From Plectonema cf. radiosum LEGE 06105 (GTDB lineage: Bacteria; Cyanobacteriota; Cyanobacteriia; Cyanobacteriales; Nostocaceae): 64,000 nucleotides of DNA. The stretch spans positions 1 through 64,000 of the forward strand of contig NZ_JADEWL010000020.1 in NCBI RefSeq assembly GCF_015207665.1, read 5' to 3'. Shown here piece by piece: positions 6,473-62,647 of this stretch. Under the pieces are notes generated by a model that worked only from the letters and a program-made list of their open reading frames with translations, searched no databases and was not told the origin of the DNA. A program made the translations under genes and the position numbers. Each line of letters starts with the position of its first letter. Position 1 is the first letter of the stretch.

Positions 6473-6531
6473 GAAAATCTGATTAATAAAAAACAATATT
6501 TAGTTACAATACCTTTGCCAATTTACGAGGG

Positions 6532-6627
6532 TTAAACAACTGTAGAAACCTTGTGAATACGACCTAAAGATGTGAGCTTGGCAAAAATCTGTACTAATAA
6601 AATAGGATCGGGCTTGTGGGGAAGCAT
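6532..6627 (-). CDS. Possible 31-residue peptide
   Basis: A short frame starting MLPHKPDPILLVQIFAK lies wholly in the gap between the Hsp70-like and HerA-like genes. It is moderately hydrophobic. It could be a leader peptide or the tail of a lost gene, because the frame stays open some codons upstream of the ATG. Support is weak. Confidence 0.25.
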   Translation of the reverse strand: MLPHKPDPILLVQIFAKLTSLGRIHKVSTVV

Positions 6628-6649
6628 TTTTAATATTTCATTGGTATTG

Positions 6650-8704
6650 TTAGTTAATTAGTGCTTTCATGTCTTCAGCCTTAGCCTTGAGACTTTCTTC
6701 AAAAATAGTCGTGATGTTATCACTCAGTTCCTGCCTAATTTTTTCTTCCCCTTTAAGTTTGGCAGATATCTCATTAACAATTTGTGTATGCTGGTCATTA
6801 ATTTTGGAGTATACAGAGCTAGATTCAATTCTATCCCTAGCTAACATTGGAAGATCCCAACTAGGCATTTTTTCCTCAAGAGTACTCTTTACTGTATCTT
6901 TAGCTTTCGTCCCACCAAAAACTGCCAAACCAAGAACGACTAACAAGGCTCCCCCTCCTGAACCAATAGTAAGAATGGCAAACAACAAACCAGCTAGAGT
7001 TGTAGAGATTAGAGCTGTTATATATATTATTATTCCCAAAATAACAGGTGCAACTGCATAACTCACAACACCAGCTAGAACACCAGAAATCCAAGAAACA
7101 ATATTACTAAATTCGGATATTAGACCATCAGTTGCATCTATGTTTGACTGAGTACCCAAGGAAATACTTCCTACTGTAAGGTTCTTCAAGTCGAAGGATT
7201 CTCCTAACTTGCCAATAGGGACATTATATTTAACTTCTAATGCTTTAATGTCATTACGAAGCTCTTGAGAGATTTTAGCCAACATTTGATTGGTTTCTTT
7301 CCCATATAACTTACTGAGGTTCTCACCCTGCAACAAAGATTTTATATCTTTATCAATAGCATATTTCATATTGTTAACTGTTTTATGATCTCTGTTTTTC
7401 CATGAATCAAAGTTACGTTTAATAATGTTAATAACACTATCTGCTAGAGCAGAAGCAATAGCTTCATACAAAGAATCTATTTGTTTGGTGACTTCAGGTT
7501 TAATATTATCGGAGCAAAATATTTCTACTTCTTGAGAAAATTGGCTCGTGTTTATTTCGACTCGACCCCAACGAGCTAATCCCCTAGCAATACAATACTC
7601 AGGAGTTTTATCTAATCCTAGAGATGCTTGGGGAAAGACTTTTTTACAAATTTCTTGCACAAAGTCCATGCGAGACGCTCCACCAGTGAGAAGAATTGCT
7701 CCAGAAAAATCATTTGAGCTTCCGAATTGTTGTCTGATTTCTAATTCTTGTTTCAGCCTTATCAATTCATTCATAAAAGCAGCTGGCCATGTTTCTAGTC
7801 CACTTCCTAAATTGACAATAGGAGTGTTAAGAATTTCGTTCATCACATTACCATCAACTTCTGGCTCAAAATATATACCTGAAATTTTTACAGTTTGATA
7901 AGGAGCATAGTTTTCAGCCATTTGATAATTTTCTGGTTCAGCAAAGTAAGCTTCTTTAGTATCTCGACAAGCTAACTCACACTCGTTGCGAAGATACGAA
8001 TACTGGCTAAAGATATTTTCTAATTCAGTTTTTTTGTCATGATCAAAATTATTAATAACTCGCTGGAGAATAGCTTTATCAATTAAAGAAGCTCCTAAAT
8101 CACGACCCAAATCAATTGGGATACTATTTTTATTCTGATCGATGAATGTGATGTCAGTAGTAGAAGAACCTATATCAATAACAATTAAGCTATTTCTTAA
8201 TTGAGCCATGTTCACGATGCCTTTTTCTACAGCATGAATATAGGCAGCACGAGATTCTGCTACTACCTTTACTCGTTGAATACCAGCATCAGAAAATAAT
8301 TTTTCATAAGCACTTACAATCGCTAAATCTTTTGTCCATTCAGAAGGACATCCCACAATAAAAAAACTTTCGGTTCCTTTAATTCTTCCTTGTTCTATTT
8401 GAGTTTCATATATCATTCTAATATAATCACTCATAACCCTTTGATATTCAGGATCATTGCTGGGTTTTCTTTTAAAAGTTATATGTGATTCTACTATTCC
8501 TTTAGTTTTAAGGGCAGATCTTCCCACTAAAATACCTCGTGTAGGATGATAACCAATTGCCGTTATTATATTCTTTTTCCCAGCAAATATTTCAAGAAGT
8601 TCAGGCTCACTTGTTTTATCCGTATCATTCACGAATATATGCGCCAAGGCTGTTTCGCCATGACCTAAATCAAAACCAATAACTTCGCTAATATTTTCGG
8701 ACAT
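6650..8704 (-). CDS. Membrane-anchored Hsp70-like ATPase
   Basis: This encodes 684 residues. The start is set by AGAGGA 6 nt before the ATG at 8704. The actin-fold nucleotide site is complete: phosphate-1 GFDLGHGETA near residue 10, phosphate-2 VIDIGSSTTD near 180 and the adenosine motif LTGGASRMD near 335. Instead of a normal substrate-binding domain it has a helical region, a strongly hydrophobic block near residues 535-600 (two or three membrane segments) and a charged coiled C-terminus. Its catalytic domain would thus be tethered to a membrane. The adjacent upstream gene is a plausible nucleotide-exchange partner and the downstream gene is a HerA-like ATPase. Confidence 0.8.
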   Translation of the reverse strand: MSENISEVIGFDLGHGETALAHIFVNDTDKTSEPELLEIFAGKKNIITAIGYHPTRGILVGRSALKTKGIVESHITFKRKPSNDPEYQRVMSDYIRMIYETQIEQGRIKGTESFFIVGCPSEWTKDLAIVSAYEKLFSDAGIQRVKVVAESRAAYIHAVEKGIVNMAQLRNSLIVIDIGSSTTDITFIDQNKNSIPIDLGRDLGASLIDKAILQRVINNFDHDKKTELENIFSQYSYLRNECELACRDTKEAYFAEPENYQMAENYAPYQTVKISGIYFEPEVDGNVMNEILNTPIVNLGSGLETWPAAFMNELIRLKQELEIRQQFGSSNDFSGAILLTGGASRMDFVQEICKKVFPQASLGLDKTPEYCIARGLARWGRVEINTSQFSQEVEIFCSDNIKPEVTKQIDSLYEAIASALADSVINIIKRNFDSWKNRDHKTVNNMKYAIDKDIKSLLQGENLSKLYGKETNQMLAKISQELRNDIKALEVKYNVPIGKLGESFDLKNLTVGSISLGTQSNIDATDGLISEFSNIVSWISGVLAGVVSYAVAPVILGIIIYITALISTTLAGLLFAILTIGSGGGALLVVLGLAVFGGTKAKDTVKSTLEEKMPSWDLPMLARDRIESSSVYSKINDQHTQIVNEISAKLKGEEKIRQELSDNITTIFEESLKAKAEDMKALIN

Positions 8705-24649: not shown

Positions 24650-25813
24650 ATGGCTGGTATCCCCCCGCAACTGCACAAACGACTGCGTAATGTTTTGTTA
24701 GAATGCGAACAATTCGAGAGCGATCGCAACCTCAAGACAATTTTCACTAACGAGTCACTCCGTCCTTGGCGTTCTAGTTTACCTCAAGCTGATAGCCTTA
24801 ACAGTAGAGTGGATTATTTGATTGCTTTCTTGGTTAACAAGCGTCGCAGCGACACCAAAGAAAATGCTCTTGTGCTATTTGTACGCTTATTAAGCGAGCT
24901 GATAGATGAGGCAGATAATCGTCACCAACAGTTGAAGCATTTAGCAGCGGAACTCGAATATAATCTTGAAAACAACTCAATTACTAATAGTACTCCGGAT
25001 AATCGATCACCAGAAGATAACCCAATACCAGAAAATCACCCTATAAAAAATCGCCCAATAAAAAATCGCTGGGCATTTTTGGTTGGTGTTAATAATTACA
25101 ACGACCCTAATTTTGGGCGTTTGAATTTCTGTGTAAGTGATGTACTAGCATTGGAAGAAAGACTCAAAGCTCTAAATTATACAGTTGTTTGCTTACACGA
25201 CCAACTTGGACACGGAAATCAACGCTTCCCAAGCCGAGATAATATTGAAGCAGAATTGATTCGACTTTGCGAAATGGTCGAACCTAATGATTTATTACTG
25301 GTGCATTTTGCTTGTCATGGCAAGCTTTTTCATGAAAAACCTTTACTAATAGTAAATAATACTCGTTCCCAAACTTTGGAAAAAACTGGGCTACCTCTTG
25401 AAGTTGTAAAGCAGCATATGCGTTCTAGTCAAGCAAGGCGCTTGGTGCTGACTTTGGATGCTTGCCACATGGGAGTAGAAACTGGTAGGGACATTAACGA
25501 CGATCCGCAGTTTATTCATAATGCTTATGACTTAGCTGAGGGTTTTGCTCTAATCGCAGCAAGCACAGCACAACAGAAAGCGCAAGAGTCAAAAGACAAA
25601 AAGTTTGGAGTTTTTACTTATTATTTACTAGAAGCACTCAGTGGTAAAGCAGATAGGGGTAGCAAGCGATTTGTGACTGTGGATGATATTAAAACTTATG
25701 TATTGGATTCTCTCAAGCGTTGGAGTGTGGAAAATGGTGGCATTATTCAAGAGCCGACTGCTTCCATTGAGGGATTCGGGGACATAATATTAGCAGATTA
25801 TCGTAACAGCTAA
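24650..25813 (+). CDS. EAD plus caspase-like protease (peptidase C14)
   Basis: This encodes 387 residues. The EAD spans residues 1-100 (GIPPQLHKRLRNVLLECEQF, PWR, RSDTKENAL), followed by a low-complexity linker rich in Asn, Pro and Ile repeats (112-138). The caspase fold starts with WAFLVGVNNYNDP near 142. The catalytic His is in HFACHG near 221 and the Cys in LTLDACHMG near 271. Metacaspase-like proteins of this kind cleave after basic residues or regulate cell death; which applies here is unknown. The EAD should recruit it to the STAND or adaptor proteins nearby. The next gene encodes a membrane protein. Confidence 0.88.
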   Translation: MAGIPPQLHKRLRNVLLECEQFESDRNLKTIFTNESLRPWRSSLPQADSLNSRVDYLIAFLVNKRRSDTKENALVLFVRLLSELIDEADNRHQQLKHLAAELEYNLENNSITNSTPDNRSPEDNPIPENHPIKNRPIKNRWAFLVGVNNYNDPNFGRLNFCVSDVLALEERLKALNYTVVCLHDQLGHGNQRFPSRDNIEAELIRLCEMVEPNDLLLVHFACHGKLFHEKPLLIVNNTRSQTLEKTGLPLEVVKQHMRSSQARRLVLTLDACHMGVETGRDINDDPQFIHNAYDLAEGFALIAASTAQQKAQESKDKKFGVFTYYLLEALSGKADRGSKRFVTVDDIKTYVLDSLKRWSVENGGIIQEPTASIEGFGDIILADYRNS

Positions 25814-29240: not shown

Positions 29241-32200
29241 ATGAGCGGAGGACTGCCGAAAGAGCTAAATCATCGATGTCGTCAAGTTTTCTTACAATGC
29301 GATGAGTTTAAACATTATGATGCTTTAATTGCTGTTTTTGTCACTGATGAATTGCTTCCATTTAAATCTGAAATTAGAAATGCAAATAATCGGAAGCAAC
29401 TAGTTGACTTTTGTTTGGAAGATTTACTGCAAAAGCGGATAAAAAGCGGTAAGCCCGTATTAGAAATTTTTTTAGCGACTTTAAAAGATAAATATGAAGT
29501 AGGAAATGCTTTGCATGATGAATTAGCAGCCCTATATAGGGATGTACACTTAGCATTCACAAAAATAGAAGTTTTATCGAAACAAATTCAATTAAGCTAT
29601 CAGCAATTTCCAGATGTATTAAGTTTTAATTTACCGGGTGAAGAATTATTTGCTGGCAGAAAGCAGTTAATTCACGAGTTTCTTTCTCTTTCTAAGAAAA
29701 CCCGTATTGTTGCAATAATAGGTATTCCAGGTGTTGGAAAAACATCTCTAATGAAACAAGTTGCATCCCAACTGGAACTGAATCATGTTTTCTGGTATGA
29801 GTTTCATCCAGAATTGGCATCGTTGAATCATATCTTGATAACTTTGGCTCAGTTTATCGAAAAGCAGATAGACAATGGAGATAATTTAACATTTACGTTC
29901 AAATCTTCTGAGTTATTGGATGAACAACGCATTGCAATTATAATCAAAAATTTAAATCATCACCGTTATTATCTATTCTTTGATTCAGTTCATCTTATTG
30001 AGAAGAATTCAAACATAGAGAGCTTTTTCTCTATTTTAAAACAGAAGTTAACACAAAGCATAATTTTTATCAGTAGTCGTGCAAAACCCTGCTTCTGTAA
30101 ACCAATTGATGAAGCAAAGAAAATTATAAAAGTATTTCACTTGGATGGTTTACGTGATGTTGATGAAATACAAGATTTTTTTGTTCGGAGAAGTATTCAA
30201 ATTTCCTCTGAGTTAGCGAGAAAAATTGATAAACGTTTTGGTGGTTTACCTCTTGCTCTTGAATTAATAGCTGTTTTATTTAAGGAAGACTTTACAGAAG
30301 AACATTTATTAGCATTAGCTGAAGACCAGGTTATAGAACAATTATTTGATGAAATATACGAACGCTTAACCCCGAATGAAAGAAAGTTTTTGACAATAGC
30401 TTCAATGTTTTATTTACCATTCTCAGAAGAAAATGTAGTAAGTGCTTATCGTTCTATATTTTTCCAAGATGACGGAAAAATTCATTTAACAAAACTAAAA
30501 CGGCAATTATTAATTAATGTATCTGTATCTAATGACTATAAAGTACATGAATCTATTCGCACGCTAATACTCAGATATACAGATGAGCCAAGCAATTTGC
30601 AAATTCAGCTTGCTGATTTTTTGGTGGCTCAAATGCAAGAAGAATATCATCTTTTACTAGAAGCAATACTACTTTATTACCGTGCGAAAGCATTTAATAA
30701 AGCATCAACAGTAGTAGTTGATGCTATTGATGCTGGTTTAATTCCTTATCACCCTAATTTAGCAGAAACATTTCTTAGTCAATTTGAAGAAGATATGGTA
30801 AGTCCAGATAAATGGATATGGCTGCTTGGTAGTAAAGGAATGCTAGCTAATTTTTGGCGTAGATATGACGAGGCTGAAGACTTTTACCAAAGAATGTTAC
30901 ATTTAGCTGGTGAACTTCAAGATAAAGTTGCCAGTGCACTTGCTTTTCAAATATTAGGAGCCGTTTATGTTCAGAGAAATGACGAAATTGCAAAGAAAAA
31001 TTATTTGAATAGCCTTGCTTTAAAAAAGGAATTAAACGATGTCAAAGGGCAAGCCGAAATATACAATAATTTGGGAGAAATCTATACTCGTCAACAGCAA
31101 TTACCTGAAGCCGAATTTCTTTTAAAACAAGGCTTAAAGTTACTTGAAAAGATTAATGCTCCAAATTGGCAGAAAATATGCCTATACGCAAACTTAGCAC
31201 ATTTATATGCCGAACAAGGTAATTGGCAAAAAGCTGTTAATTTTACTCAGACTGCTCGCCAGATAGCGGAAGAAATGCGTATGATTTACAAGGTAGGGAT
31301 GTTAACTTATGATTTAGGCGTACATGAATTTAAGCAAGGTAAATACGAAATTGCAAGCAAATACTACTCAGAATCTTTAGAAATAGCACAAACTTATAAA
31401 CTATGGGAATTGGAAGAATTAGTTCATGTAGGCTTGGGAAAATTACATCATAAGTTGGGTAATTACAATAAAGCAATAAAGCATTTTCAGAAAGTTGCAG
31501 AAATTGAAGAAGAAATCGATGATAAAAGTAAATTAACTAGCACTTACTTTGATATTGGAACTTTCTATTATGAAATAAATGATTATCAAAATGCGTTTGG
31601 TTATTACGAAAAAGGAATTTACCTATTTGAGCATCTAATGGATGATAAGCAAATTCAGGTATTTTTAAACAATATTTATGTTTTTGCAAGTAAATTGGAA
31701 ACACCTCAATCTATTTTACGTCCTTTAAAATTATTGAAGAAGCGATTGCTTGTTAATGCTCCATCTTATGCTCTAGCAAAAGTATACGGAACCTTGGGAG
31801 AAATATATTTGCAGCTTTTAAATCGCAATCGCGTTGCGATAGCTTGTATGCGTCAAGAAATAGCTTTATTATCACAACTTGACCGTAAACCAGAAGAAAT
31901 AAATGCATTAATTAATTTGGGAGCAACTTATGAAAACTTAGAACTTTACGCAAATGTCTTAGACATAAGTGAAGAAGCTATAAAACGTGCAGAAGCCCAC
32001 AATCTTAACACTCTAACAGCAATTTCTTACTATAACCGAGGTAATTGCTTGACTAAGATGAAAATGTGGGAAGACGCAGAAAATGATTATCAGCGTGCTT
32101 TAGTATTAGTTGAAAATGTAAAAGATACGGTGCAACGGGAGGCAATACTTCATAATTTTGGAGAAATGTATCGTCGCTGGGGAAAACTAGAAAACAGTGT

Positions 32201-32978
32201 GAAGTTATTGCAATTAAGTTTGGAATCTGTACGCCAGCGTAATGATGTTGATTCCGAAATTACCAATTTAAACAATCTTGGTTTAGCTTATCGCTCCCTA
32301 TCACAAACTCAAGAAGCACTTGACTGTTTCAATACTGCTTTAAATTTAACTCACCAATACTATCGTAAATGCGATGAGTCAAGAATTTGTATTAGTTTAG
32401 GTAATCTATATTTATTAAATAACCAACCAGAACAAGCAAAATATTACTACCATAATACTTTAGTGGCAGCTCGCCAAATAGAAGATACTGATTGGGAAGA
32501 AGGTAGCATCCTGTCTCTTGCTGCTGCTTGCAAAGAACTTGGTAAATTTGATGATATTGCTGATGATTTTCAAGCTGTCGCAGAACGTGCTTATAATTTA
32601 GGACATCATGAAAATTGTATCAAATTTTTAACTTTCGCTGGTAAAATAAATCTTGAAGAAAAGAAACCAGACAGTTCTGCTGATATGTTTGATAAAGCTT
32701 TATCAATAGCTCTTGTGCTAGTATATGAGCGTATCAGGCAATGTGGAGAGCAGGCAAATATTTCTTTTTTGTCTCAGAAATTAACAGAAGTTCTTGATAG
32801 TATTGGTGACAGTATTGAAGAGTCTGTAGAAAATAATTCTGTTGAATATGCTGTTATTATGTATCAAAGTTTATTGGAAAAACTTCACAGTGAACATTAT
32901 TGGGAAGAATCAAATTATTGGATTTTTGATTGTCTAAAGCCAATGGGAGACTGGCTAAATAACTGGAGTTTAGACTAA
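29241..32978 (+). CDS. EAD-STAND NTPase (NB-ARC type) with TPR sensor
   Basis: This encodes 1245 residues. A divergent EAD (1-105, GLPKELNHRCRQVFLQCDEF) is followed by a STAND ATPase: Walker A IIGIPGVGKTSL near 160, Walker B LFFDSVHL near 246, sensor FISSRAKP near 274 and GGLPLALEL near 333. A winged-helix-like region follows. From about 500 to 1200 it is TPR repeats with varied sequence, unlike the homogeneous CHAT arrays. In such proteins ligand binding to the repeats triggers NTPase-driven oligomerisation, and the N-terminal death-like domain recruits effectors. Here the EAD could recruit the caspase, the CHAT adaptor or the PNP protein. Confidence 0.88.
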   Translation: MSGGLPKELNHRCRQVFLQCDEFKHYDALIAVFVTDELLPFKSEIRNANNRKQLVDFCLEDLLQKRIKSGKPVLEIFLATLKDKYEVGNALHDELAALYRDVHLAFTKIEVLSKQIQLSYQQFPDVLSFNLPGEELFAGRKQLIHEFLSLSKKTRIVAIIGIPGVGKTSLMKQVASQLELNHVFWYEFHPELASLNHILITLAQFIEKQIDNGDNLTFTFKSSELLDEQRIAIIIKNLNHHRYYLFFDSVHLIEKNSNIESFFSILKQKLTQSIIFISSRAKPCFCKPIDEAKKIIKVFHLDGLRDVDEIQDFFVRRSIQISSELARKIDKRFGGLPLALELIAVLFKEDFTEEHLLALAEDQVIEQLFDEIYERLTPNERKFLTIASMFYLPFSEENVVSAYRSIFFQDDGKIHLTKLKRQLLINVSVSNDYKVHESIRTLILRYTDEPSNLQIQLADFLVAQMQEEYHLLLEAILLYYRAKAFNKASTVVVDAIDAGLIPYHPNLAETFLSQFEEDMVSPDKWIWLLGSKGMLANFWRRYDEAEDFYQRMLHLAGELQDKVASALAFQILGAVYVQRNDEIAKKNYLNSLALKKELNDVKGQAEIYNNLGEIYTRQQQLPEAEFLLKQGLKLLEKINAPNWQKICLYANLAHLYAEQGNWQKAVNFTQTARQIAEEMRMIYKVGMLTYDLGVHEFKQGKYEIASKYYSESLEIAQTYKLWELEELVHVGLGKLHHKLGNYNKAIKHFQKVAEIEEEIDDKSKLTSTYFDIGTFYYEINDYQNAFGYYEKGIYLFEHLMDDKQIQVFLNNIYVFASKLETPQSILRPLKLLKKRLLVNAPSYALAKVYGTLGEIYLQLLNRNRVAIACMRQEIALLSQLDRKPEEINALINLGATYENLELYANVLDISEEAIKRAEAHNLNTLTAISYYNRGNCLTKMKMWEDAENDYQRALVLVENVKDTVQREAILHNFGEMYRRWGKLENSVKLLQLSLESVRQRNDVDSEITNLNNLGLAYRSLSQTQEALDCFNTALNLTHQYYRKCDESRICISLGNLYLLNNQPEQAKYYYHNTLVAARQIEDTDWEEGSILSLAAACKELGKFDDIADDFQAVAERAYNLGHHENCIKFLTFAGKINLEEKKPDSSADMFDKALSIALVLVYERIRQCGEQANISFLSQKLTEVLDSIGDSIEESVENNSVEYAVIMYQSLLEKLHSEHYWEESNYWIFDCLKPMGDWLNNWSLD

Positions 32979-33165: not shown

Positions 33166-33984
33166 CTAATTCTTCAACCGAAGCTCTCGTGAGTAGAGAT
33201 AAAACACTCGCTTCCAGGCAATTTGAGCGAGCCGCACATCTAGACAATTTCCAAGTGCTGCTCGGCGATCGCGAGTAACTCTGTCGCCGCTCGGCACTCC
33301 TGCGGGGATGTCCAGCCGATTGGCAGCCCAAATTGTAGTTCTAGCCACTCTGGATTGAATACTTCCTTCTTGCCAATTAAGCCTAACTTCTTGGCTTTGG
33401 CTTCCGATTTGGTGGTGCCAGGAGGTCGTCCTTTGCCACTCCAGCTTAAGGCTCCTGGACGTGGCAACGAGTAAGAGTCTTTTTCCAGACCATCTGGTTC
33501 CAAACCTTGATGTTCCGACAACCATCCACTCTGCATCATACCCGCATTCATGAAGCTGCCGGAGCATCTGTTGAAAATATGTTCCGGGTTCGTTTCTTGG
33601 GTATTGAGGTGCCGACAATAATCCGGGTACGTTTTCGAGACAGAAAAATTTGGGTTGGATTCTGGCAACAAGTCGCAACACTGCGGGAATACAGTCTCGC
33701 TTGTCGGCTCCTCCCAAACGCTTTCCCTCAATGCTGAAGGGCTGGCATGGAGGCGATGCTGTGATTGTGTCGATTTCTCCCTTTTCAATTCGGAGGTGGC
33801 GCACGTCGTTGTAGATTGGCACACCGGGAAAACGTTGTTGCAACCTTTGTCTACAAAACGAGTCGGTTTCGCAAAGTCCACATAGTCTGACTTTTCCGGT
33901 GATGATTCCCGAGAGGGGGAAACCGGCTCCAATTCCGCTGCACAAGTCAAGCTGTCTAAGTTTTCTTGTTCCCATTGGTGCCAT
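33166..33984 (-). CDS. C5-cytosine DNA methyltransferase
   Basis: This encodes 272 residues. Motif I (DLCSGIGAGFPLSG near residue 11), motif IV with catalytic Cys (SPPCQPFS near 78), motif VI (ENVPGLL near 118), a motif VIII-like GTRWSGKR and a motif X-like RRAALGN near 247 are present. Between VIII and X the recognition region is short, so the enzyme resembles compact phage or orphan methyltransferases. No partner restriction enzyme is adjacent. Its frame is overlapped almost completely by another long frame on the same strand (33240-34148). The 30 residues after ALGN seem less conserved. Confidence 0.8.
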   Translation of the reverse strand: MAPMGTRKLRQLDLCSGIGAGFPLSGIITGKVRLCGLCETDSFCRQRLQQRFPGVPIYNDVRHLRIEKGEIDTITASPPCQPFSIEGKRLGGADKRDCIPAVLRLVARIQPKFFCLENVPGLLSAPQYPRNEPGTYFQQMLRQLHECGYDAEWMVVGTSRFGTRWSGKRLLLVATSRSLKLEWQRTTSWHHQIGSQSQEVRLNWQEGSIQSRVARTTIWAANRLDIPAGVPSGDRVTRDRRAALGNCLDVRLAQIAWKRVFYLYSRELRLKN

Positions 33985-34148
33985 GCCTCCTCATATTCGA
34001 TTAATGTGTCATAGTCATCCGGTTCTGGTGGCTCGATGCTGTCATCCCAAAAGATTGTAGGATTACCGTTTGAATCGAGTTTACGCGGCATTTCATCGAA
34101 ATGTGCCGGATTCCAACGGTCAGACTCAGAAATTTCTTTCACTTTCAT
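33240..34148 (-). CDS. Overlapping frame: Ser/Pro-rich protein sharing DNA with methyltransferase
   Basis: This encodes 302 residues from an ATG with a GGGGAG site just upstream. The first 55 residues (WNPAHFDEMPRKLDSNGN, then PPEPDDYDTLIEYEEAW) precede the methyltransferase. The next 245 are read in another frame through it. The C-terminus reads as conserved protein: SLPRPGALSWSGKGRPPG, KLGLIGKKEVFNPEWLE and GLPIGWTSP. I recall similar endings in cyanobacterial proteins linked to DNA methylases. The middle is Ser/Thr/Cys-rich and fits no fold I know. Either both frames are used or this is a long chance frame with a frameshifted C-terminus. Confidence 0.6.
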   Translation of the reverse strand: MKVKEISESDRWNPAHFDEMPRKLDSNGNPTIFWDDSIEPPEPDDYDTLIEYEEAWHQWEQENLDSLTCAAELEPVSPSRESSPEKSDYVDFAKPTRFVDKGCNNVFPVCQSTTTCATSELKREKSTQSQHRLHASPSALRESVWEEPTSETVFPQCCDLLPESNPNFSVSKTYPDYCRHLNTQETNPEHIFNRCSGSFMNAGMMQSGWLSEHQGLEPDGLEKDSYSLPRPGALSWSGKGRPPGTTKSEAKAKKLGLIGKKEVFNPEWLELQFGLPIGWTSPQECRAATELLAIAEQHLEIV

Positions 34149-34216
34149 TCTCCCCAGAGCGTTTTATTCTGAAACGGATGCACCCATCGAAACTTTTTTA
34201 TACAATAACTAAAAGC

Positions 34217-35833
34217 TCAGTTAACCGAGTAAGACATATCTCGCCATCGACGCAGGTGATGATATATCTCAATTTCATGAAAGGCTCGGTTTTCCCATAT
34301 TAACGTACCAGGAAGTTTGATTTCATACACCCCCGAAGCTATCTCCTTATATTCTTCTATTACACCCTCTTTCTTGGCTTTATTTAATACCTTGACACTA
34401 TCCGGAGTAATATCAATCACCCTCCGTTTTTGCTCAATACAGAGAGCATTCCAGGCTTCTCCTTTAACTTCTGGATACTGGTTAAATATGATTCTAATAT
34501 CTTCCCAATCTCCTTGTATTAGCACATCGATTGCTTTGTCTAAGGGTGTCGGTTCCAACTCTAAATCCGATTCTTCGGCTTCTTCTAAATATTCTTGTGC
34601 TTCTGAGGCGCTAGTATAAGACCTAAAGCTACTTGTTTCTTCTACTATTTCTAACTCGCTCCAATGGAAATAATTATTAAAACCATCAACTTTAACCAGG
34701 ATGGGAGTGATATTCTCCCCATTTAATCCGATCACCTTACCTTGTCTGTTCTGAAGATTCCCTGTTTTAATTTCTACAGTAGCAGGTATATCGAATCCCA
34801 TCGATACGAGAGCGTCATTCCGAATGTCGGTGTCTACCCAAGTCAACTCTTGCTCGAAGTTGTGATAATTTGCAAGAGTCGTACCCCAAGTTTGTCTCCA
34901 TTGGGGATTGTGGTTGACGGCATAATTAGAAAGATGCTTGAGGGATGTTCCGTCGCGATTTGTAATATTAGCGATCGCATTCCATCTTTTATCTTGGGGA
35001 ACCGCTGCTTCCCATCGCTGGCAATTCTCCGCGATTAAGTTGCCCGTTTGACGATCAAGGAAGCCAATATCATCAACATCAGCTTGCAGTTGTTCGCTCA
35101 ATTCTTGCCACTTATCTTTGACGGTTGGGATTTGATTGACTGATGGGATTGGTTCACTATAATGATTATCATCATTCACTCTCACACCAACACCATTCAC
35201 ATCAGGGGCAGCACTTTCTTCTTGTTGCCCTTCCGTAATCTTCTGATATAAATCAGCAACTGCCTCTCTGAGTATTGCTTGCGGTATTAGCCCGTACTCA
35301 TCCATTAGCTTTTGAGTTAATACTCCCGTCCGCTGATCATCTTCATATACGGGTGGAAACTGCGCGTAGCGTTCACCCCGGCAATTTCTGCGCCATATTG
35401 AAGGTTTTTCTGGTAGCTCCGATTCTTTCTCTTTCTTAAGTAATGCTTGCCTTTCTTTGATTAAACCAAGAACGCGATCGCAAGTTATATCATCCTCATC
35501 AAGTTGGTTTAATTCTGCGATTATCGGCTTGTATTTCTCTGAGCATAATCTCAATAATGTCGTAACGGGGATTTGGATTAGAGCATGGGGACGATGGGCA
35601 AAATCTTGGAAATGTTCTGCTAACTTGAGCGCCCGTTTCTCCTCCATGCTGCCTTTATCCCAACCGTACCCGTCGAGTAGTTCTCGATATTCTCGTTTGC
35701 TGTACGCTCTTTTGTATTCCCAGAGCAGAAAACTAACGTGGAGATATTCTATGGTGCTAGCTTCCAGATGCTTTACGGGGTCAGCATCTATGTTGTGAGT
35801 TTCGCAGTAGGTTGATTTTTGTAGTAGTTGCAT
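34217..35833 (-). CDS. Large hypothetical protein of mobile-element type
   Basis: This encodes 538 residues from the Met at 35833 (MQLLQKSTYC). This start is supported by a decayed duplicate near 37071 that keeps the same upstream bases. The helical N-terminal half includes a Trp-rich region (SIWRRNCRGERYAQFPP). A middle part has NGENITPILVKVDGFNNYFHW, an SH3-like stretch before an acidic linker, and a small C-terminal domain follows. No catalytic motif is seen. The gene lies between the methyltransferase pair and a DNA-binding-type gene, so a role in replication or maintenance of the element is possible. Confidence 0.6.
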   Translation of the reverse strand: MQLLQKSTYCETHNIDADPVKHLEASTIEYLHVSFLLWEYKRAYSKREYRELLDGYGWDKGSMEEKRALKLAEHFQDFAHRPHALIQIPVTTLLRLCSEKYKPIIAELNQLDEDDITCDRVLGLIKERQALLKKEKESELPEKPSIWRRNCRGERYAQFPPVYEDDQRTGVLTQKLMDEYGLIPQAILREAVADLYQKITEGQQEESAAPDVNGVGVRVNDDNHYSEPIPSVNQIPTVKDKWQELSEQLQADVDDIGFLDRQTGNLIAENCQRWEAAVPQDKRWNAIANITNRDGTSLKHLSNYAVNHNPQWRQTWGTTLANYHNFEQELTWVDTDIRNDALVSMGFDIPATVEIKTGNLQNRQGKVIGLNGENITPILVKVDGFNNYFHWSELEIVEETSSFRSYTSASEAQEYLEEAEESDLELEPTPLDKAIDVLIQGDWEDIRIIFNQYPEVKGEAWNALCIEQKRRVIDITPDSVKVLNKAKKEGVIEEYKEIASGVYEIKLPGTLIWENRAFHEIEIYHHLRRWRDMSYSVN

Positions 35834-35908
35834 GGTATTAATAAATTCTGATTTTGTTGTTTGGTCTTCCTTTAAGACCAAATTTTATTTATTTGACCAA
35901 CTCGAATA

Positions 35909-38606: not shown

Positions 38607-38987
38607 ATGATTACAGTTACACCAGAGGAAATTAGTCAGTTTCGCACTCAGTTGGCGGATAATCCAGAAGCTTTAGCAGCTTTGGATGCCATAGAAGAGT
38701 GTAAAGGAAATCTGGAAGCAGCAGCACAGTTAATTGCTGTTGAGACAACCGAAGCAGAAGTCAGCTTGAGGGGAGATTCAAATTATTTAGAGAAATTAGC
38801 CCAAAAACTCAGCAAAATTATCTGCCAGGAAGAATTTGACGAGTTGATGGCAGGAGTATTGACAACTGCGATCGCCACCCTCGCAGTAAGTGGTAATATT
38901 CCCGCAGCTTTGGCAACTCCAGTGGTAATTTATGTTGCCAAAATTGGGAAGAAGCAATTTTGTGAAACCGCCAAACCTGAATCCTAA
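38607..38987 (+). CDS. Small protein with C-terminal membrane segment, convergent with CHAT gene
   Basis: This encodes 126 residues. The helical N-terminal part is rich in Glu and Ala (residues 1-75). A hydrophobic helix near 85-115 (LTTAIATLAVSGN, then ATPVVIYVAKIG) probably inserts in a membrane. Its stop codon overlaps that of the CHAT gene on the other strand, so the two transcripts collide. Similar small genes beside CHAT-TPR genes are familiar in cyanobacteria, which suggests a functional pair. Its role as activator or target is not known. Confidence 0.6.
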   Translation: MITVTPEEISQFRTQLADNPEALAALDAIEECKGNLEAAAQLIAVETTEAEVSLRGDSNYLEKLAQKLSKIICQEEFDELMAGVLTTAIATLAVSGNIPAALATPVVIYVAKIGKKQFCETAKPES

Positions 38988-41900
38988 AGACCTGTAGCTG
39001 TAAATCCTGCCCAGTAAAATGGTGCTACAAAAGGGTGGGGTTTACGTTTGCAGGTTCTTCTTAATATTGCTCTTGCCACTGGACGCTTTTCTTCTGGAAG
39101 TTGAGCAAAAATTTCTTCAATTTGTGAATCATATTTAACTAATAGTGCTTCAAATTCCTCTGTTGTTAAATTTCGTAGCCATTCCTGTGCTTGATTGAGT
39201 GCTAGAGATACACTATTTATTATTTGCAAATTTTCATAAAATTTCATCATCAAAAATGCTGTAGATAAATCGCTGACAGTCCACAAACTACTGACTACAG
39301 CTTTGCTCCCAGCTAATATAAAACCGCTAGGTAAGCCAATATATTCGTCACTGGTATTTTGAAAATCAATTAAACCAGTTTCGCAGGCGGAGAGAACTAC
39401 AAGACGAGCTTGACTAACGTCGAAAGTTTGTTCAAATAAATTACCTAATGTCAGGCATTTACTTAAATCTACAGCTTTGTCTTTGGATACTTTTACATAT
39501 TTTTCGGGGTGAGCATCAGCAAATTCTGGAGAAACATAAGCATCTGCTAGCACTAAACAGGAATTTTTGGGAAAATCTAAATTGAAGAAACCGTGACAAG
39601 AAAAGTGGAGATAATTCGCTTGCTTTAATTGTATTGCAGCTTGGGATAAAGCAGCTTTTGTAGCTTGTTTTTTGGATAATACTTCATGAGAGGGAAAGTA
39701 AGATAATATGCTTTCTACTTCTAAGTCAGTAAAAGATAAGTCTTCTGTGGGGTTTTGAATCGCAAACAGGGATTGGAAATCAGGACGTTGGCGCTGTTGT
39801 ACCTGTTGCAGTATTTGACAACTGGGTGCATAACTTACACCACCAGCAAATAAATCTAGAAGACAAGACGAATTTTGAGAATTTTGATTTACTGGTAGTG
39901 CATGAAGGGGGAATAAGTGCAGGTATTGATGGGGAATTAGGATGAGTTTATCGCAGTGCTTTGGTATCTGGGTTAATATTTCATCAATGTGCAGAATTGA
40001 GGCTAATTTATTGAGTGCCTCTCCTAAGCTATTCAGCCATTGGTCTTTTTGCTCGTAGTAGTTCTGCAAATATTGATTTATCCAATTTCCCAAAGCTTCT
40101 AGGTCTTCTGGTTGGGATTGCCAAACATTAACCTCTCCTTTTTGTGTGACAATAAACGCCAGAATTTTATTATTGAGAATATACCACTCGATAATGGCTG
40201 TATGCTCATCCAAAGTAGATTGAAATGAGTCAAATTTGAAACCATAACCAACGGGTAAGTAGCGGTTTTGCAATTCATTACGCTCTTGTCGCAACTGTTG
40301 CAGATGTTGTGCTAGGACTTGGGGATTTTCATCAGCTTTGCCATTTTGGATTTGATATTGTCCTACGGCTATTTCATCCCTGTATGTTTCTAGTTGAGTG
40401 ACTACTTCTGGCGGGAAGATGGTTTTAGAGTCGCGTTCGAGGATTTGTTCAACTAAATTGCGAGTTTTGCTACGCTCAACATATTCAATCGCTGCCGTGA
40501 TATTACTTAATTCCAAGCAAACTTCTACCATGTTGCTATAAACTTCGTTAAAACGCTCTGCTTGTTTGCGTTTACTTTCCTCTCCAGAAACTATTTCCTC
40601 TCGCAAAGATTCTACTGTGGCAATGACAGATTCAAAAGTATTGTAAGCTAAACAAAACTGGTTTATATTTTGGTAAGCAACCCCCAGTCTACACGAAGAC
40701 TCCGCCCATTCTTGGGGAAAGTCTTCGCGGGTTGTGACAGTTAAGGCAGCAGTAAAAGCAGCGATCGCCTGTTCTATGTTTTCTGCTTTCTCTCCTCGAA
40801 TTCGATCGACGTAGGCACCACCGAGATTATGTAGCGTCATTGCCCAATTTTCGGGAAAGGCTTCGCGGGTGCTAACAGCTAAAGCAGCAGTAAAAGAAGC
40901 GATCGCCTGTTCTATATTTTCTGCCTTTTCTCCCGAAATTCTTTTACGGTAGGTGGCACCGAGATTACTTTGCGTAACTGCCCAATCTTCGGGAAAGGCT
41001 TCGCGGGTTCTAACAGTTAAGGCAGCTGTAAAAGCAGCGATCGCCTGTTCTACATTTTCTGACTTCTCTCCTCGAATTCTAATATGGTAGGTGGCACCGA
41101 GATTATTTTGCGTATCTGCCCAATCTTTGGGAAAGGCTTCGCGGGTTCTGACAGTTAAGGCAGCCTTATAAGCCTTGATCGCTTGTTCAATATTTTCTGC
41201 GTTATCTCCTAGAATTCGATCACCGTAAGCACCACCGAGATTATGTTGTGCCCTTGCCCATTCTTCGGGAAAGGCTTCGCTAGTTATGATAGTTAAAGCA
41301 GCCTTATAAGCCTTGATCGCCTGTTCAATATTTTCTGCCTTATCTCCTAGAATTCTCATATAGTAAGCAGCACCGAGATTATTTTGCGTATCTGCCCAAT
41401 CTTTGGGAAAAGCTTCGCGGGTTCTGATAGTTAAAGCAGCAGTAAAAGCAGCGATAGCAATTTCGATGTTCTCTGCCCTGTCTCCTTTGATTCTCTGGCT
41501 GTAGGCAGCAGCAAGATTATTTTGCGTCATTGCCCACTCAACAGGCAAAGCTTCCCTAGTGTAGAGAGTTAACGCGACTTCATGCCCAGTGATGGCAATT
41601 TCCATATTGCTGGTTTTGTTACCCAAGGGGAATTGCTGAATAAGATTGCTAAAATTGTCGATAACTGATGCTATGTTTTCCGCCTCATCTGCTTTCACTT
41701 CTCTGAGTGTATTTGTTTCCAAGCCACGTAGTATTTGTGCAAACACTCCATCGAGCTTGTCTGTATTCCGTGCCAGCAAGGGGTAAACCACCTGGGGATT
41801 ACCTTTGCTGTCTGCGGTTGCTTGTAGCACCTCCCCCACGAATTGGAAATATGTTTCCATCTCCTCCTTACTCAGAAATTGCAAATCTACTTGATTATCT

Positions 41901-42121
41901 AGATTTAACACTTCCTTAAGATAACTTGCCAAATTTTGCAACCAATTTGCCGTATTTTCATTTCCATGTTGAGAATATATCTGTGCTAATTCTTCTAATT
42001 GATGCACAAATCCAGCATCAAGTAAATCTTGGTGTGCGGTTAAAATCTCTTCTCCAGCACTGGGGAAATCAAACAGGCTGCTAATGAGGTTGAGATAGGC
42101 TTGCTGACGTTGTTCGTTCAT
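38984..42121 (-). CDS. CHAT-domain protease with seven TPR units
   Basis: This encodes 1045 residues. The N-terminal domain MNEQRQQAYLNLISSLFD is related to those at 11219 and 24466. Then follow a helical region to about 190 and about seven 46-residue TPR units (ENIEQAIAAFTAALTVRTREAFP..WA..QNNLG). The CHAT domain carries HFSCHG near 840 and LSACETG near 908. The shorter array and a variant spacer between His and Cys (an insertion near DAYVSPEFADAHPE) set it apart from the other two. The same upstream element as at 11132 ends 60 bp before the ATG. Confidence 0.9.
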   Translation of the reverse strand: MNEQRQQAYLNLISSLFDFPSAGEEILTAHQDLLDAGFVHQLEELAQIYSQHGNENTANWLQNLASYLKEVLNLDNQVDLQFLSKEEMETYFQFVGEVLQATADSKGNPQVVYPLLARNTDKLDGVFAQILRGLETNTLREVKADEAENIASVIDNFSNLIQQFPLGNKTSNMEIAITGHEVALTLYTREALPVEWAMTQNNLAAAYSQRIKGDRAENIEIAIAAFTAALTIRTREAFPKDWADTQNNLGAAYYMRILGDKAENIEQAIKAYKAALTIITSEAFPEEWARAQHNLGGAYGDRILGDNAENIEQAIKAYKAALTVRTREAFPKDWADTQNNLGATYHIRIRGEKSENVEQAIAAFTAALTVRTREAFPEDWAVTQSNLGATYRKRISGEKAENIEQAIASFTAALAVSTREAFPENWAMTLHNLGGAYVDRIRGEKAENIEQAIAAFTAALTVTTREDFPQEWAESSCRLGVAYQNINQFCLAYNTFESVIATVESLREEIVSGEESKRKQAERFNEVYSNMVEVCLELSNITAAIEYVERSKTRNLVEQILERDSKTIFPPEVVTQLETYRDEIAVGQYQIQNGKADENPQVLAQHLQQLRQERNELQNRYLPVGYGFKFDSFQSTLDEHTAIIEWYILNNKILAFIVTQKGEVNVWQSQPEDLEALGNWINQYLQNYYEQKDQWLNSLGEALNKLASILHIDEILTQIPKHCDKLILIPHQYLHLFPLHALPVNQNSQNSSCLLDLFAGGVSYAPSCQILQQVQQRQRPDFQSLFAIQNPTEDLSFTDLEVESILSYFPSHEVLSKKQATKAALSQAAIQLKQANYLHFSCHGFFNLDFPKNSCLVLADAYVSPEFADAHPEKYVKVSKDKAVDLSKCLTLGNLFEQTFDVSQARLVVLSACETGLIDFQNTSDEYIGLPSGFILAGSKAVVSSLWTVSDLSTAFLMMKFYENLQIINSVSLALNQAQEWLRNLTTEEFEALLVKYDSQIEEIFAQLPEEKRPVARAILRRTCKRKPHPFVAPFYWAGFTATGL

Positions 42122-59793: not shown

Positions 59794-60489
59794 ATGAACA
59801 GGTTCAAGCAATTTACTGTTTCTGCTGCTAAAAAAATGCCTGTCATAATCCTTGCAGATGTTAGCGGGAGTATGAGCGTTGATGGCAAGATAGAAACACT
59901 TAACAGAGCGATCGCCGAAATGATTTCTTCTTTCCAAGAGGAGGAATATGCTGGTGCCGAAATCCATATTGCGGTTGTGACTTTTGGTCAAGGTGGAGCT
60001 AAAATCCATCTGCCTTTGCAAGTTGCGTCTGGGGTTGAATGGACTGATATGGAAGCGATTGGTTCTACACCGATGGGAGAGGCTTTTGAGGTAGTTCAGG
60101 GTATTGTAGAAGATAAAAATCAAATAGCTAGTCGAGATTATCATCCTACTATTGTTTTAGTTTCTGATGGTCAACCTACTAATCGAACAGGTCATTTGAC
60201 AGATGAATGGAAACAACCGCTACAAGAGTTACTCAACTCCTCAAGAGCTTCTAAAGCATTGCGCTTGTCGATGGCTATTGGTGCGGATGCTGACTATGAG
60301 GTGCTAAAGGAATTCTTGCAAAATCAACAGCAGCAAGATATACCAGTATTTCGCGCTGATGAAGCACATCAAATTCGCCAGTTCTTCCGTTGGGTAACAT
60401 TAAGCGTGACAAGTCGTTCTAGAAGCGTGAGTCCCAATACTGTATCTATTAAAGACTTTGGTAATGTTGAAGACCTAGAAATGTTCTGA
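59794..60489 (+). CDS. TerY-type VWA-domain protein
   Basis: This encodes 231 residues. The metal-ion-dependent adhesion site is complete: DVSGSMS near residue 21, the Thr in GSTPMGEAF near 90 and Asp in LVSDGQP near 124. The layout matches TerY proteins, which are VWA proteins linked to tellurite-type stress modules. Its stop overlaps the start of the phosphatase gene (TGATG). It would serve as a scaffold whose Ser/Thr residues are possible kinase targets. Confidence 0.85.
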   Translation: MNRFKQFTVSAAKKMPVIILADVSGSMSVDGKIETLNRAIAEMISSFQEEEYAGAEIHIAVVTFGQGGAKIHLPLQVASGVEWTDMEAIGSTPMGEAFEVVQGIVEDKNQIASRDYHPTIVLVSDGQPTNRTGHLTDEWKQPLQELLNSSRASKALRLSMAIGADADYEVLKEFLQNQQQQDIPVFRADEAHQIRQFFRWVTLSVTSRSRSVSPNTVSIKDFGNVEDLEMF

Positions 60490-61238
60490 TGGCACAGAAA
60501 TTATTAACTCAGGTGCAATGCTTTGGTGCTTCTGTAAAAGGACCGCTTCACAAACGTGAAGGTCGTCCAAATGAAGATGCTTGGGAATTTATGCGTGGTA
60601 GTTTTGGTACCGCTATTGTAGTCAGTGATGGCATGGGTTCTAAGCCAAATGCTCGCACTGGAGCGCGTATGGCTTGTCGCGCGGTAAAAGAAGCACTGCA
60701 ATACTGGGCAAAAATTGAAGGTGCGTCGCCAGTAATGCTCTTACGGTTAGTACATATACTGTGGGGAATGCGGGTATTACCTATTAGTGAGGAAGATAGT
60801 GCTGCCACTTGCGTATTTGCTGTGGTTGTTCCCTCTGGGGAACTACTTGTAGCAAAATTAGGGGATGGAATCGCCGCAATAAGGGAAAGCGATGGCAAAG
60901 TTGTTCTAATTGGTGATGAGCGTACCGGGTTTTGCAATCAAACTACAGCTTTGGGTATAGCAAAGTCAACCAAAGAATGGTCTGTAATTACTAGACCAAG
61001 TTTAGCTCCTGGGGCTGCTGTTTTATTAGCTACTGATGGGATAGCAGACGATTTGATAGAGGAGCAGGTAGGAGGTTTTATCAAATTTCTTGTAGAAGAA
61101 TTCGCTTATATGGAACCCGCAACCAGGTGGAGAGCTTTATGCCACGAGTTGCGAAATTGGTCTACACCTAAACACATGGATGATAAGACTTTGGCGGTTC
61201 TTTGGCATCAAAAAGATGATTTAGGAGGTGCAGCTTAA
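60489..61238 (+). CDS. PP2C-family Ser/Thr phosphatase
   Basis: This encodes 249 residues. Metal-binding motifs are NEDAW near residue 28, SDGMGS near 45 and ATDGIADD near 181, with the late Asp in DDKTLAVL near 232. It has the compact PP2C fold of TerY-P triads and lacks a membrane segment. It overlaps both neighbouring genes by one base. It would reverse phosphorylation by the following kinase. Confidence 0.88.
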   Translation: MAQKLLTQVQCFGASVKGPLHKREGRPNEDAWEFMRGSFGTAIVVSDGMGSKPNARTGARMACRAVKEALQYWAKIEGASPVMLLRLVHILWGMRVLPISEEDSAATCVFAVVVPSGELLVAKLGDGIAAIRESDGKVVLIGDERTGFCNQTTALGIAKSTKEWSVITRPSLAPGAAVLLATDGIADDLIEEQVGGFIKFLVEEFAYMEPATRWRALCHELRNWSTPKHMDDKTLAVLWHQKDDLGGAA

Positions 61239-62647
61239 TGATAGAACAAAAGAAAAGAGTAGTAGACGAAGTTGGTCAGGTATATCAACTGGGTAAAGAA
61301 TTAGGTCGCGGAGGACAAGGTGCTGTTTTTGCGGTTGAGAATGGTAATCTTGCAGTAAAAATTATTTTTGACCGTTCTGCTGCACGTCGTAATCATTTTA
61401 AAAAGCAACTAACATCGGTAAAGATGTTATGTGACATAGAAAAACTTTTCGTCGCACGTCCACGAGAGATGTTAGAAGCTCCATATGTTGGTTATGTGAT
61501 GGAACTTTTAACTGATATGGTTCCTATTAGTAAATTAATTAATATTCCTAAAAATACAAATTGCTTAATTGAATGGTATTTAGAAGGTGGGGGACTTCGC
61601 CGTCGTTTATTATTACTAGCGCGTTGTGCAGAAAGTTTAGCTCAGTTACACGGTAAAGGACTTGTATATAGCGACCCTTCACCGAATAATATCTTTATTT
61701 CTAATGATGTTAGTAATAATGATATTATCCGCTTCATCGATGCTGATAATCTTCAATATTCAAGTTCTTCATCTTCCATAAATGTTTATACTCCCGAATT
61801 TGGCGCACCGGAATTAGTTACGGAAAAGTCGGGTGTTAATACTCTTACTGATGCTCATGCTTTTGCTGTTATAGCATTCAAAACTTTATCTTTAGTTCAC
61901 CCGTTGATGGGAGATATGGTTAATGATGGAGAACCCGAATTAGAAACACAAGCCTTGGAAGGAAAATTACCTTGGATTGATGACCCTGAAGATAATCAAA
62001 ACTCCACAAATCAGGGATTTCCAAGAGATATTGTACTTTCTCCATATCTAATAGAATTATCAAAAAAATGTTTTGGAGTTGGTCTTAATCAACCTTCCAA
62101 AAGACCAGGTGTTGGACAATGGGCTGAAAGACTATATTCAGCAGCAGATTGTACTATTTGCTGTCCGGAATGTAATAGTACATATTATATAAAGAAAAAA
62201 AAATACAATACTACATCTTACATAAATCAAACAAATTGTCCTTGGTGTGATTATCCCAGACCTGCTTTTGTTCAAGTTGCAATTCAACGTTGGGAAATGC
62301 TTGAAGGACGTTTTAAAGAACAAAAACCTTTACAAATTCTTGCTTTAAATTCTTATGAACCTTTAATTCTAACTAATAGAATTATTAGCGGTAGAACGGG
62401 TATAGATAGTCATAATCCTAATATTGAACTTGTTTTAGAAGGAGAAATTATTAAAGTACGCAGTGTTAACGGTCAATGTTTCTGGTTGACATCTGAAGGA
62501 ACTCAAATAGAGAAAGAAGTACGGGATAAATGGGTTCGCTTTCCTGCAAGAACTGGGAAAGATGGCTCCTGGCTCTTACATTTTAACCATCTTGATTGCT
62601 CCCATCGTCTGGCTAGTTTTCAGCTCTTTCGGGGAGAAAATGTATGA
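61238..62647 (+). CDS. Protein kinase with C-terminal zinc ribbon
   Basis: This encodes 469 residues. The Gly-rich loop LGRGGQGAVF (about 21-30), the Lys of LAVKII near 40, the catalytic loop YSDPSPNNIF near 145 (HxD variant YxD) and FIDADN near 166 make a Ser/Thr kinase core. Two Cys pairs (CCPEC near 306 and CPWC near 334) form a zinc ribbon. The last 130 residues form a beta-rich domain. This is the third member of the TerY-P triad. It overlaps the next gene as ATGA. Confidence 0.88.
   Translation: MIEQKKRVVDEVGQVYQLGKELGRGGQGAVFAVENGNLAVKIIFDRSAARRNHFKKQLTSVKMLCDIEKLFVARPREMLEAPYVGYVMELLTDMVPISKLINIPKNTNCLIEWYLEGGGLRRRLLLLARCAESLAQLHGKGLVYSDPSPNNIFISNDVSNNDIIRFIDADNLQYSSSSSSINVYTPEFGAPELVTEKSGVNTLTDAHAFAVIAFKTLSLVHPLMGDMVNDGEPELETQALEGKLPWIDDPEDNQNSTNQGFPRDIVLSPYLIELSKKCFGVGLNQPSKRPGVGQWAERLYSAADCTICCPECNSTYYIKKKKYNTTSYINQTNCPWCDYPRPAFVQVAIQRWEMLEGRFKEQKPLQILALNSYEPLILTNRIISGRTGIDSHNPNIELVLEGEIIKVRSVNGQCFWLTSEGTQIEKEVRDKWVRFPARTGKDGSWLLHFNHLDCSHRLASFQLFRGENV

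Follow-up and report, generated by a model that had tools for sequence, protein, structure and literature searches.

In a 64,000-nucleotide stretch of the cyanobacterium Plectonema cf. radiosum LEGE 06105 (contig NZ_JADEWL010000020.1, positions 1 to 64,000; this whole stretch is called the window below), we identified two interlocked open reading frames (ORFs) on the minus strand that share 745 bp. The first, alpha (frame A), encodes the catalytic domain of a C5-cytosine DNA methyltransferase. The second, beta (frame B), encodes a conserved N-terminal domain, a linker and a region that we propose supplies the DNA-recognition part of the same enzyme. Features of the pair are listed below.

33166..33984, minus strand: alpha (frame A), 272 amino acids; catalytic C5-methyltransferase domain; likely start ATG 33975
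33240..34148, minus strand: beta (frame B), 302 amino acids; N-terminal domain, linker, predicted recognition region and motif-IX-like element; likely start GTG 34142
33240..33984, minus strand: same-strand overlap of alpha and beta, 745 bp; frame B is frame A + 1
34150..34155, minus strand: GGGGAG, resembling a ribosome-binding site for beta, 7 nt ahead of GTG 34142 and only 1 nt ahead of ATG 34148
33986..33991, minus strand: AGGAGG, ribosome-binding-site-like, for alpha; within the beta coding sequence
33963..34127, minus strand: N-terminal domain of beta, conserved (B residues 8-62) and lying mostly upstream of alpha; some relatives match this domain alone, and it also occurs in other cyanobacterial proteins
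33460..33960, minus strand: segment selected in frame A (A residues 9-175, covering motifs I-VIII), with the third positions of A the fastest in 36/36 pairs
33478..33594, minus strand: zone with all three codon positions slow (A residues ~131-169), dual constraint, from a sliding window
33259..33459, minus strand: segment selected in frame B (A residues 176-242), with the putative beta recognition region and the NPEWLELQFGLPIGWT element; B third positions fastest in 36/36 pairs
33246..33602, minus strand: beta core (119 amino acids), the part taken for profile and structure work
33169..33282, minus strand: alpha motif X (ALGN) and C-terminal helices (A residues 235-272)

The initial annotation of this DNA, made from the sequence alone, described a methyltransferase and a second conserved frame sharing about 745 bp, the second beginning 164 bp earlier, and both points are borne out (33240-33984). 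It also placed all main C5 motifs in frame one and let frame two read through the methyltransferase. Neither holds, since motif IX is not in frame (PF00145 covers residues 10-191 only) and frame B ends 74 nt short of the frame A stop. In this arrangement the third positions of A are the second positions of B, and the first positions of A are the third positions of B. Beta likely starts at GTG 34142, which has GGAG 7 nt upstream, as it does in the relative L063 (loci are designated L, genomes G), or at ATG 34148. For alpha the likely start is ATG 33975, with AGGAGG 10 nt upstream, or the codon at 33984.

Alpha is readily recognized as the catalytic half of a C5-methyltransferase. Its residues 10-191 match PF00145 (Pfam, 3.4e-30), which corresponds to motifs I-VIII, and residues 2-255 match PHROG 363 (1e-42); motif X is also in frame. 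The AlphaFold2 model of alpha has a predicted local distance difference test score (pLDDT) of 83.7 and a predicted template modelling score of 0.83, with helices at residues 235-245 and 250-271. It aligns with M.HhaI over 236 residues (Z 25.1, root-mean-square deviation 2.7) and with M.HaeIII over 232 (Z 21.1, deviation 3.6). Alpha shares its fold with these canonical enzymes, but in them the target recognition domain (TRD) and motif IX lie in the same chain and frame. Alpha's own reading of 33259..33459 is a linker, and its stretch of low model confidence (residues 204-226, pLDDT below 50) falls inside this segment, which is selected in frame B.

The frame under selection changes along the overlap. 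We compared codon positions among nine related loci, chosen as the closest, giving 36 pairs that are not independent. Over motifs I-VIII the mean divergence at first, second and third positions of frame A (A1, A2 and A3) is 0.254, 0.162 and 0.421, and A3 is fastest in 36/36 pairs. Over A residues 176-242 the values are 0.412, 0.160 and 0.129, with A1, the third position of frame B, fastest in every pair, a result that upholds the conservation of frame B suggested initially. In the tail past the frame B stop they are 0.421, 0.258 and 0.560 (A3 highest in 32 of 36 pairs and A1 in 6, ties being counted twice). The selected frame therefore runs in the order A, B, A, over motifs I-VIII, the next 67 codons and motif X, with two sharp switch points. 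Motifs I-X are not contained in one frame as in a canonical enzyme: PF00145 ends at residue 191, and the segment preceding motif X is selected in frame B. The same switch is found in 13 short cyanobacterial loci (78/78, 77/77 and 75/75 pairs, counted after a minimum-change filter from 78 in all), in phage N15 compared with a Citrobacter plasmid gene (one pair), in the L100 group (3/3) and in L095/L096 (one pair). It is absent from seven canonical methyltransferases, where all three alignment segments have A3 as the fastest position in 21/21 pairs.

Near A residues 131-169 the A3 divergence drops to 0.21-0.36, a sign that both frames are constrained. Dual coding at the amino-acid level is patchy in the window's family, and strongest in this zone; the true dual coding considered in the initial annotation stands in that form, and not over the full 745 bp. 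In 13 loci resembling that of Paenibacillus larvae phage Diva, conservation of frame B extends to the stretch opposite motifs IV-VIII, and at the point where it sets in A3 falls from ~0.6 to 0.26-0.46, so that both frames are constrained over ~100 codons in these phages.

Frame B is also kept open. Stops were counted in 32 family loci, defined by tblastn scores above 165 bits in frame A after two had been dropped (L035, whose alpha is interrupted by a stop, and L070, a piece of a broken copy); in L051 just part of the first region is covered. These loci were drawn from both the B and the A searches, so an open frame B was partly selected for, and many of them are related and hence not independent. 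Opposite A residues 131-240 there are no frame-B stops in any of the 32, where shuffles of the synonymous codons of A lead one to expect ~54 in total. Opposite the first part of alpha there are none in the eight loci with a fused N-terminal domain (~18 expected). These counts indicate that an open linker is needed where beta starts upstream.

The interlocked layout is found well beyond the window, in locus searches that all began from an A or a B query. The same genome contains a second interlocked copy (L002, G000:C280; A of 286 and B of 418 amino acids) and a third, truncated one (L003). Beside this third copy lies an open frame of 126 amino acids (L003:103-483, plus strand) that consists of an 18-residue unit repeated almost perfectly. 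Among 292 relatives, frame A was matched at E <=1e-10 in 243, canonical methyltransferases included, and frame B at E <=0.001 in 84, some through the N-terminal domain alone. A profile of the beta core, scored against up to 11 first-look candidates in each of 386 genomes sampled across the phylum, matched at least 22 of them at a threshold of 1e-5. A B-core match was present at 147 of 173 loci, 87 of which are distinct, and lies in frame A+1 in 81 of these, in A+2 in three and in A+0 in three. Alpha's frame encloses at least 90% of the B segment in 77 of the 81, encloses it partly in L046, L050 and L171, and does not overlap it in L141. The A+2 loci are L015, L058 and L152, and the A+0 loci are L059, L166 and L128. 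L015, L059, L152 and L166 are read as broken copies. L058 has frame changes in both matches. In L128, a canonical enzyme, motif IX is in frame and gives a weak match to the phage profile. In L015, from the same genus (G004:C51), a frame change joins the first part of beta with the last part of alpha, which is either a broken copy or an assembly error.

A methyltransferase match with no B-core match was seen at 24 of the 173 loci. In 23 canonical loci of this kind (L053, which has an AquI-like overlap, being excluded), the A+1 frame is broken by 8 to 39 stops, with a longest open run of 32 to 104 codons; in full-length copies of the overlap class the longest open A+1 run is ~150 to 300 codons. 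The viral set, from IMG/VR, consists of 60 loci, or 50 after 10 duplicates were dropped. Of these, 46 are A+1 (41 nested in alpha's frame and five partial), three are A+0 (L219 and L228, which are single-chain, and the broken L208), and one, L222, lacks an alpha match. The A+1 frame is open for 184-379 codons in N15 gp58, BcepC6B gp33, SEN5, Lc-Nu, BS-TP4, PHB09, PhiXhv-18, Diva and a Citrobacter plasmid. Annotations of interlocked pairs often show just one of the two genes. On a Synechocystis plasmid (L142, 1829-2530) the coding strand lists just the frame-B stretch, as a hypothetical gene, in a table that is incomplete by its own description, and at L144:4785-6608 alpha has one entry and the downstream portion of the beta frame another. 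PhiXhv-18 and the Paenibacillus phages Leyra and Diva have annotations for both frames (the second being called an 'internal gene' in Diva).

Frame B has no match to any Pfam or NCBIfam family and a weak one (0.0044) to PHROG 1008, which is labelled 'DNA methyltransferase'. The alignment of its core (49 rows) contains the consensus blocks LPxPxALS, RPPGQTKLE and EVLNPxxL. Textbook motif IX sequences occur in frame B of diverged methyltransferases from relatives, for example VRRMTPSEYEKLQGFPVDWTLV in L095. In hhalign comparisons, the frame-B set of L095, L096, L100, L106 and L108 matches the canonical IX region at E 4.8e-6, the phage frame-B set matches this set at 1.3e-7, and beta of the window's family matches the phage set at 1.2e-5, with probabilities of 81-94% along this chain. 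The phage set also matches the short cyanobacterial group at 1e-9.

The viral single-chain homologues L219 (361 amino acids) and L228 (420 amino acids) combine within a single frame motifs I-VIII, TP-repeats, a (N/S)PDWVECLM element and motif X, which shows that both frames are parts of one enzyme. The initial annotation took homologues with both motif sets in one frame as a sign of a frameshift or assembly error; such homologues do exist, but they do not make the split an error. In a further variant (L188, L217 and L223) alpha ends after motif VIII, and motifs IX and X are in beta. L053 also contains an AquI-like interlocked pair (3718-6774 and 6038-6610, both on the minus strand), in which a 190-amino-acid frame ends after motif VIII and an overlapping frame of 1018 amino acids has the N-terminal domain, a motif-IX-like stretch and a motif-X-like MLGNGIIP.

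The N-terminal domain of beta is fused in frame B in 8 of the 32 family loci. This domain (WNPAHFGE...EPPEPDD) is also present in cyanobacterial proteins without a methyltransferase match (L054:1624-2259 and L055:2029-2682), and L055 has a weak Arm-DNA-binding match. At the other end, four of ten long frame-B ORFs scanned continue into an N6-adenine methyltransferase (Dam) domain, PF05869, as does that of L049:

L017:1-2991, minus strand: frame-B ORF with PF05869
L144:4167-6605, plus strand: frame-B ORF with PF05869 and KilA-N
L159:335-2221, plus strand: frame-B ORF with PF05869
L172:1-2694, minus strand: frame-B ORF with PF05869 and a partial DnaB in front, in the same genome as the window
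L049:784-3531, minus strand: frame-B ORF with PF05869

The continuation of beta ORFs into Dam domains indicates that frame B is a real protein elsewhere.

C5-methyltransferases made of two polypeptides have been described before. The gene for the small subunit of M.EcoHK31I is nested in that for the large one, in another frame. As excerpted from PMC3404938, M.EcoHK31I (YGGCCR) has motifs I-VIII, X and a predicted TRD in the larger polypeptide and only motif IX in the smaller, and M.AquI (CYCGRG) is split in the variable region between motifs VIII and IX, with IX and X in its beta subunit. The window's pair, compared by description only, resembles M.EcoHK31I in being a candidate two-polypeptide enzyme, encoded in overlapping frames, with motifs I-VIII and X in one subunit; motif IX in the smaller polypeptide has its counterpart here through intermediates and single-chain homologues only. 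In contrast to M.EcoHK31I, beta of the window is not nested, starting 164 bp upstream of alpha with an extra N-terminal domain. We do not file the pair as an M.EcoHK31I member because the TRD position is selected in frame B and beta starts upstream. As a candidate two-polypeptide enzyme split in the variable region between motifs VIII and IX it is like M.AquI, but motif X is in alpha rather than in beta; L053, L188, L217 and L223 do look AquI-like, but with overlapping frames. The Diva genes (KP296791), a DNA-cytosine methyltransferase and 'g49 internal gene', have the same A and A+1 layout, both annotated, and match phrog_363 in frame A (8.1e-90) and phrog_1008 in frame B (1.1e-73). However, beta of Diva starts inside alpha and has a longer recognition region with TPxAxD-type repeats. 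Phage N15 gp58 (AF064539) has an A+1 frame open for 242 codons, a QLNPHHSRWLMGLPVEW element near its end and the same codon switch; it differs in that frame A alone is annotated in the record and the N-terminal domain was not seen there.

We propose, with a probability of about 0.82, that the two frames encode a split two-subunit C5-cytosine DNA methyltransferase whose subunits come from interlocked genes and work like those of M.EcoHK31I. Alpha would bind the methyl donor and perform catalysis with motifs I-VIII and X, and beta would supply the recognition region and the motif IX element, which canonical enzymes hold between motifs VIII and X. The DNA of beta's recognition region would be read in alpha as a poorly conserved linker, and that of alpha's first half would be read in beta as an open, mostly unconserved one. 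Both proteins would have separate starts and form a heterodimer, with both subunits required for methylation and beta setting the target. This proposal is suggested by the A-B-A switch of the selected frame, the kept layout, the single-chain homologues and the lack of frame-A selection at the position of the small domain, all of which are features of sequence.

Several observations weigh against this proposal. The presence of motif IX in beta is suggested through the chain of intermediates and the single-chain homologues; compared directly, profiles of the beta core of the window's family and of canonical enzymes do not match significantly (E 0.15 and 0.53). Comparisons of the phage set with canonical enzymes (0.012) and of the window's family with the L095 set (0.007) are not convincing either. 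The model of the beta core is poor (pLDDT 62.1; helices at 65-73, 84-90 and 106-113) and has no match to solved folds in Foldseek or VIA-align, and the beta sequence gave chance-level rows only against solved structures. In six diverged proteobacterial genes the codon switch is seen in just 10 of 15 pairs. Among the 24 family loci without the N-terminal domain, ten carry frame-B stops in the first half of alpha (19, against ~64 expected), and beta must therefore initiate inside alpha in these ten. Nine of them offer an ATG downstream of the last stop and ahead of the core, L085 offers only a TTG, and the start scan found a ribosome-site-like motif before a start in three (L024, L052 and L085) and none in the other seven. 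Finally, the predicted TRD of M.EcoHK31I is in its larger subunit, according to the same excerpt (PMC3404938), whereas codons at the TRD position here are under frame-B selection in 36/36 pairs.

Programmed ribosomal frameshifting, into frame B once motif VIII has been read and back into frame A ahead of motif X, could yield one chain like those of L219 and L228. The existence of such single-chain homologues and the two sharp points at which the selected frame switches agree with this model, but it requires two opposite shifts. Moreover, the conserved N-terminal domain that beta carries in frame upstream of alpha in 8/32 family loci fits independent initiation, as do the beta ORFs that extend past alpha into Dam domains, and we consider frameshifting very unlikely. 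An equally low probability attaches to two unrelated proteins, a complete short methyltransferase in frame A and an independent function in frame B. Alpha alone does fold with high confidence in the model, and beta can fuse to other domains. However, alpha has no motif IX, the TRD position is not selected in frame A, and the beta element sits between motifs VIII and X in the single-chain homologues.

Still less probable is a relic, in which an old frameshift split off the recognition part, the enzyme died and frame B stayed open by inheritance. The broken copies (L015, L058, L059, L152 and L166) and the truncated L003 would fit such decay, but distant groups alike show strong selection on each frame within its segment. 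A recent frameshift and a chance open frame were rejected on the kept layout, the codon-position selection and the count of 0 stops against ~54 expected. The initial annotation posed dual coding and a frameshift as alternatives, and they are not exclusive: the recognition and motif IX part does lie out of frame with the catalytic part, but not through error, given A+1 in 81/87 loci. A sequencing or assembly error, conceivable in a draft genome and exemplified by the frame break of G004 (L015), has a negligible probability, being refuted by independent records with the same layout, namely complete plasmid and phage records and the 81 of 87 distinct loci.

Other genes surround the pair. Immediately upstream is a gene that adjoins the pair in three same-genus genomes, which is an association only:

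34217..35881, minus strand: 554-amino-acid protein, no Pfam match

A protein of 1245 amino acids with a bacterial Death-like domain 1, NB-ARC and tetratricopeptide (TPR) repeats is encoded at 29241-32978 (plus strand). A CHAT-domain TPR protein (38984-42121, minus strand) and a caspase-like protein (24650-25813, plus strand; PADLOC 1.9e-14) possibly represent a conflict-system cluster. Neighbouring VWA, PP2C phosphatase and protein kinase genes are located at 59794-62647 (plus strand).

A wider view, which we find about as easy to believe as to doubt, is that interlocked-frame C5 methyltransferases form a large and ancient class, found in Cyanobacteria as well as in phages or plasmids of Bacillota, Bacteroidota and Pseudomonadota, and perhaps the most widespread long same-strand overlap in bacteria. 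Selection would maintain the overlap because it ties a catalytic subunit to the specificity subunit that belongs with it. The second-frame protein of Cyanobacteria would have developed into a multi-domain platform (N-terminal domain, recognition and IX region and, in some cases, an N6-adenine methyltransferase), and the catalytic gene would be interlocked with it or nested inside it. Among the best-ranked matches in the open-licence literature we recognized no description of such a widespread class.

As excerpted from a prokaryotic genome survey, 715 same-strand overlaps longer than 60 bp were checked by hand and all judged to be misannotations, and the longest real one identified was 56 bp (PMC2478687). 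In the present case, same-strand overlaps hundreds of base pairs long turn up repeatedly in distant groups, and the codons clearly show which frame is under selection in each part. If our proposal is correct, some methyltransferases annotated as single proteins are without their expected DNA-recognition part, which would be found in an unannotated or 'hypothetical' second frame. Alpha cloned alone should then fail, and specificity predictions made from alpha alone should be wrong. The interlocked pair would also offer a ready system for testing why a long overlap persists.
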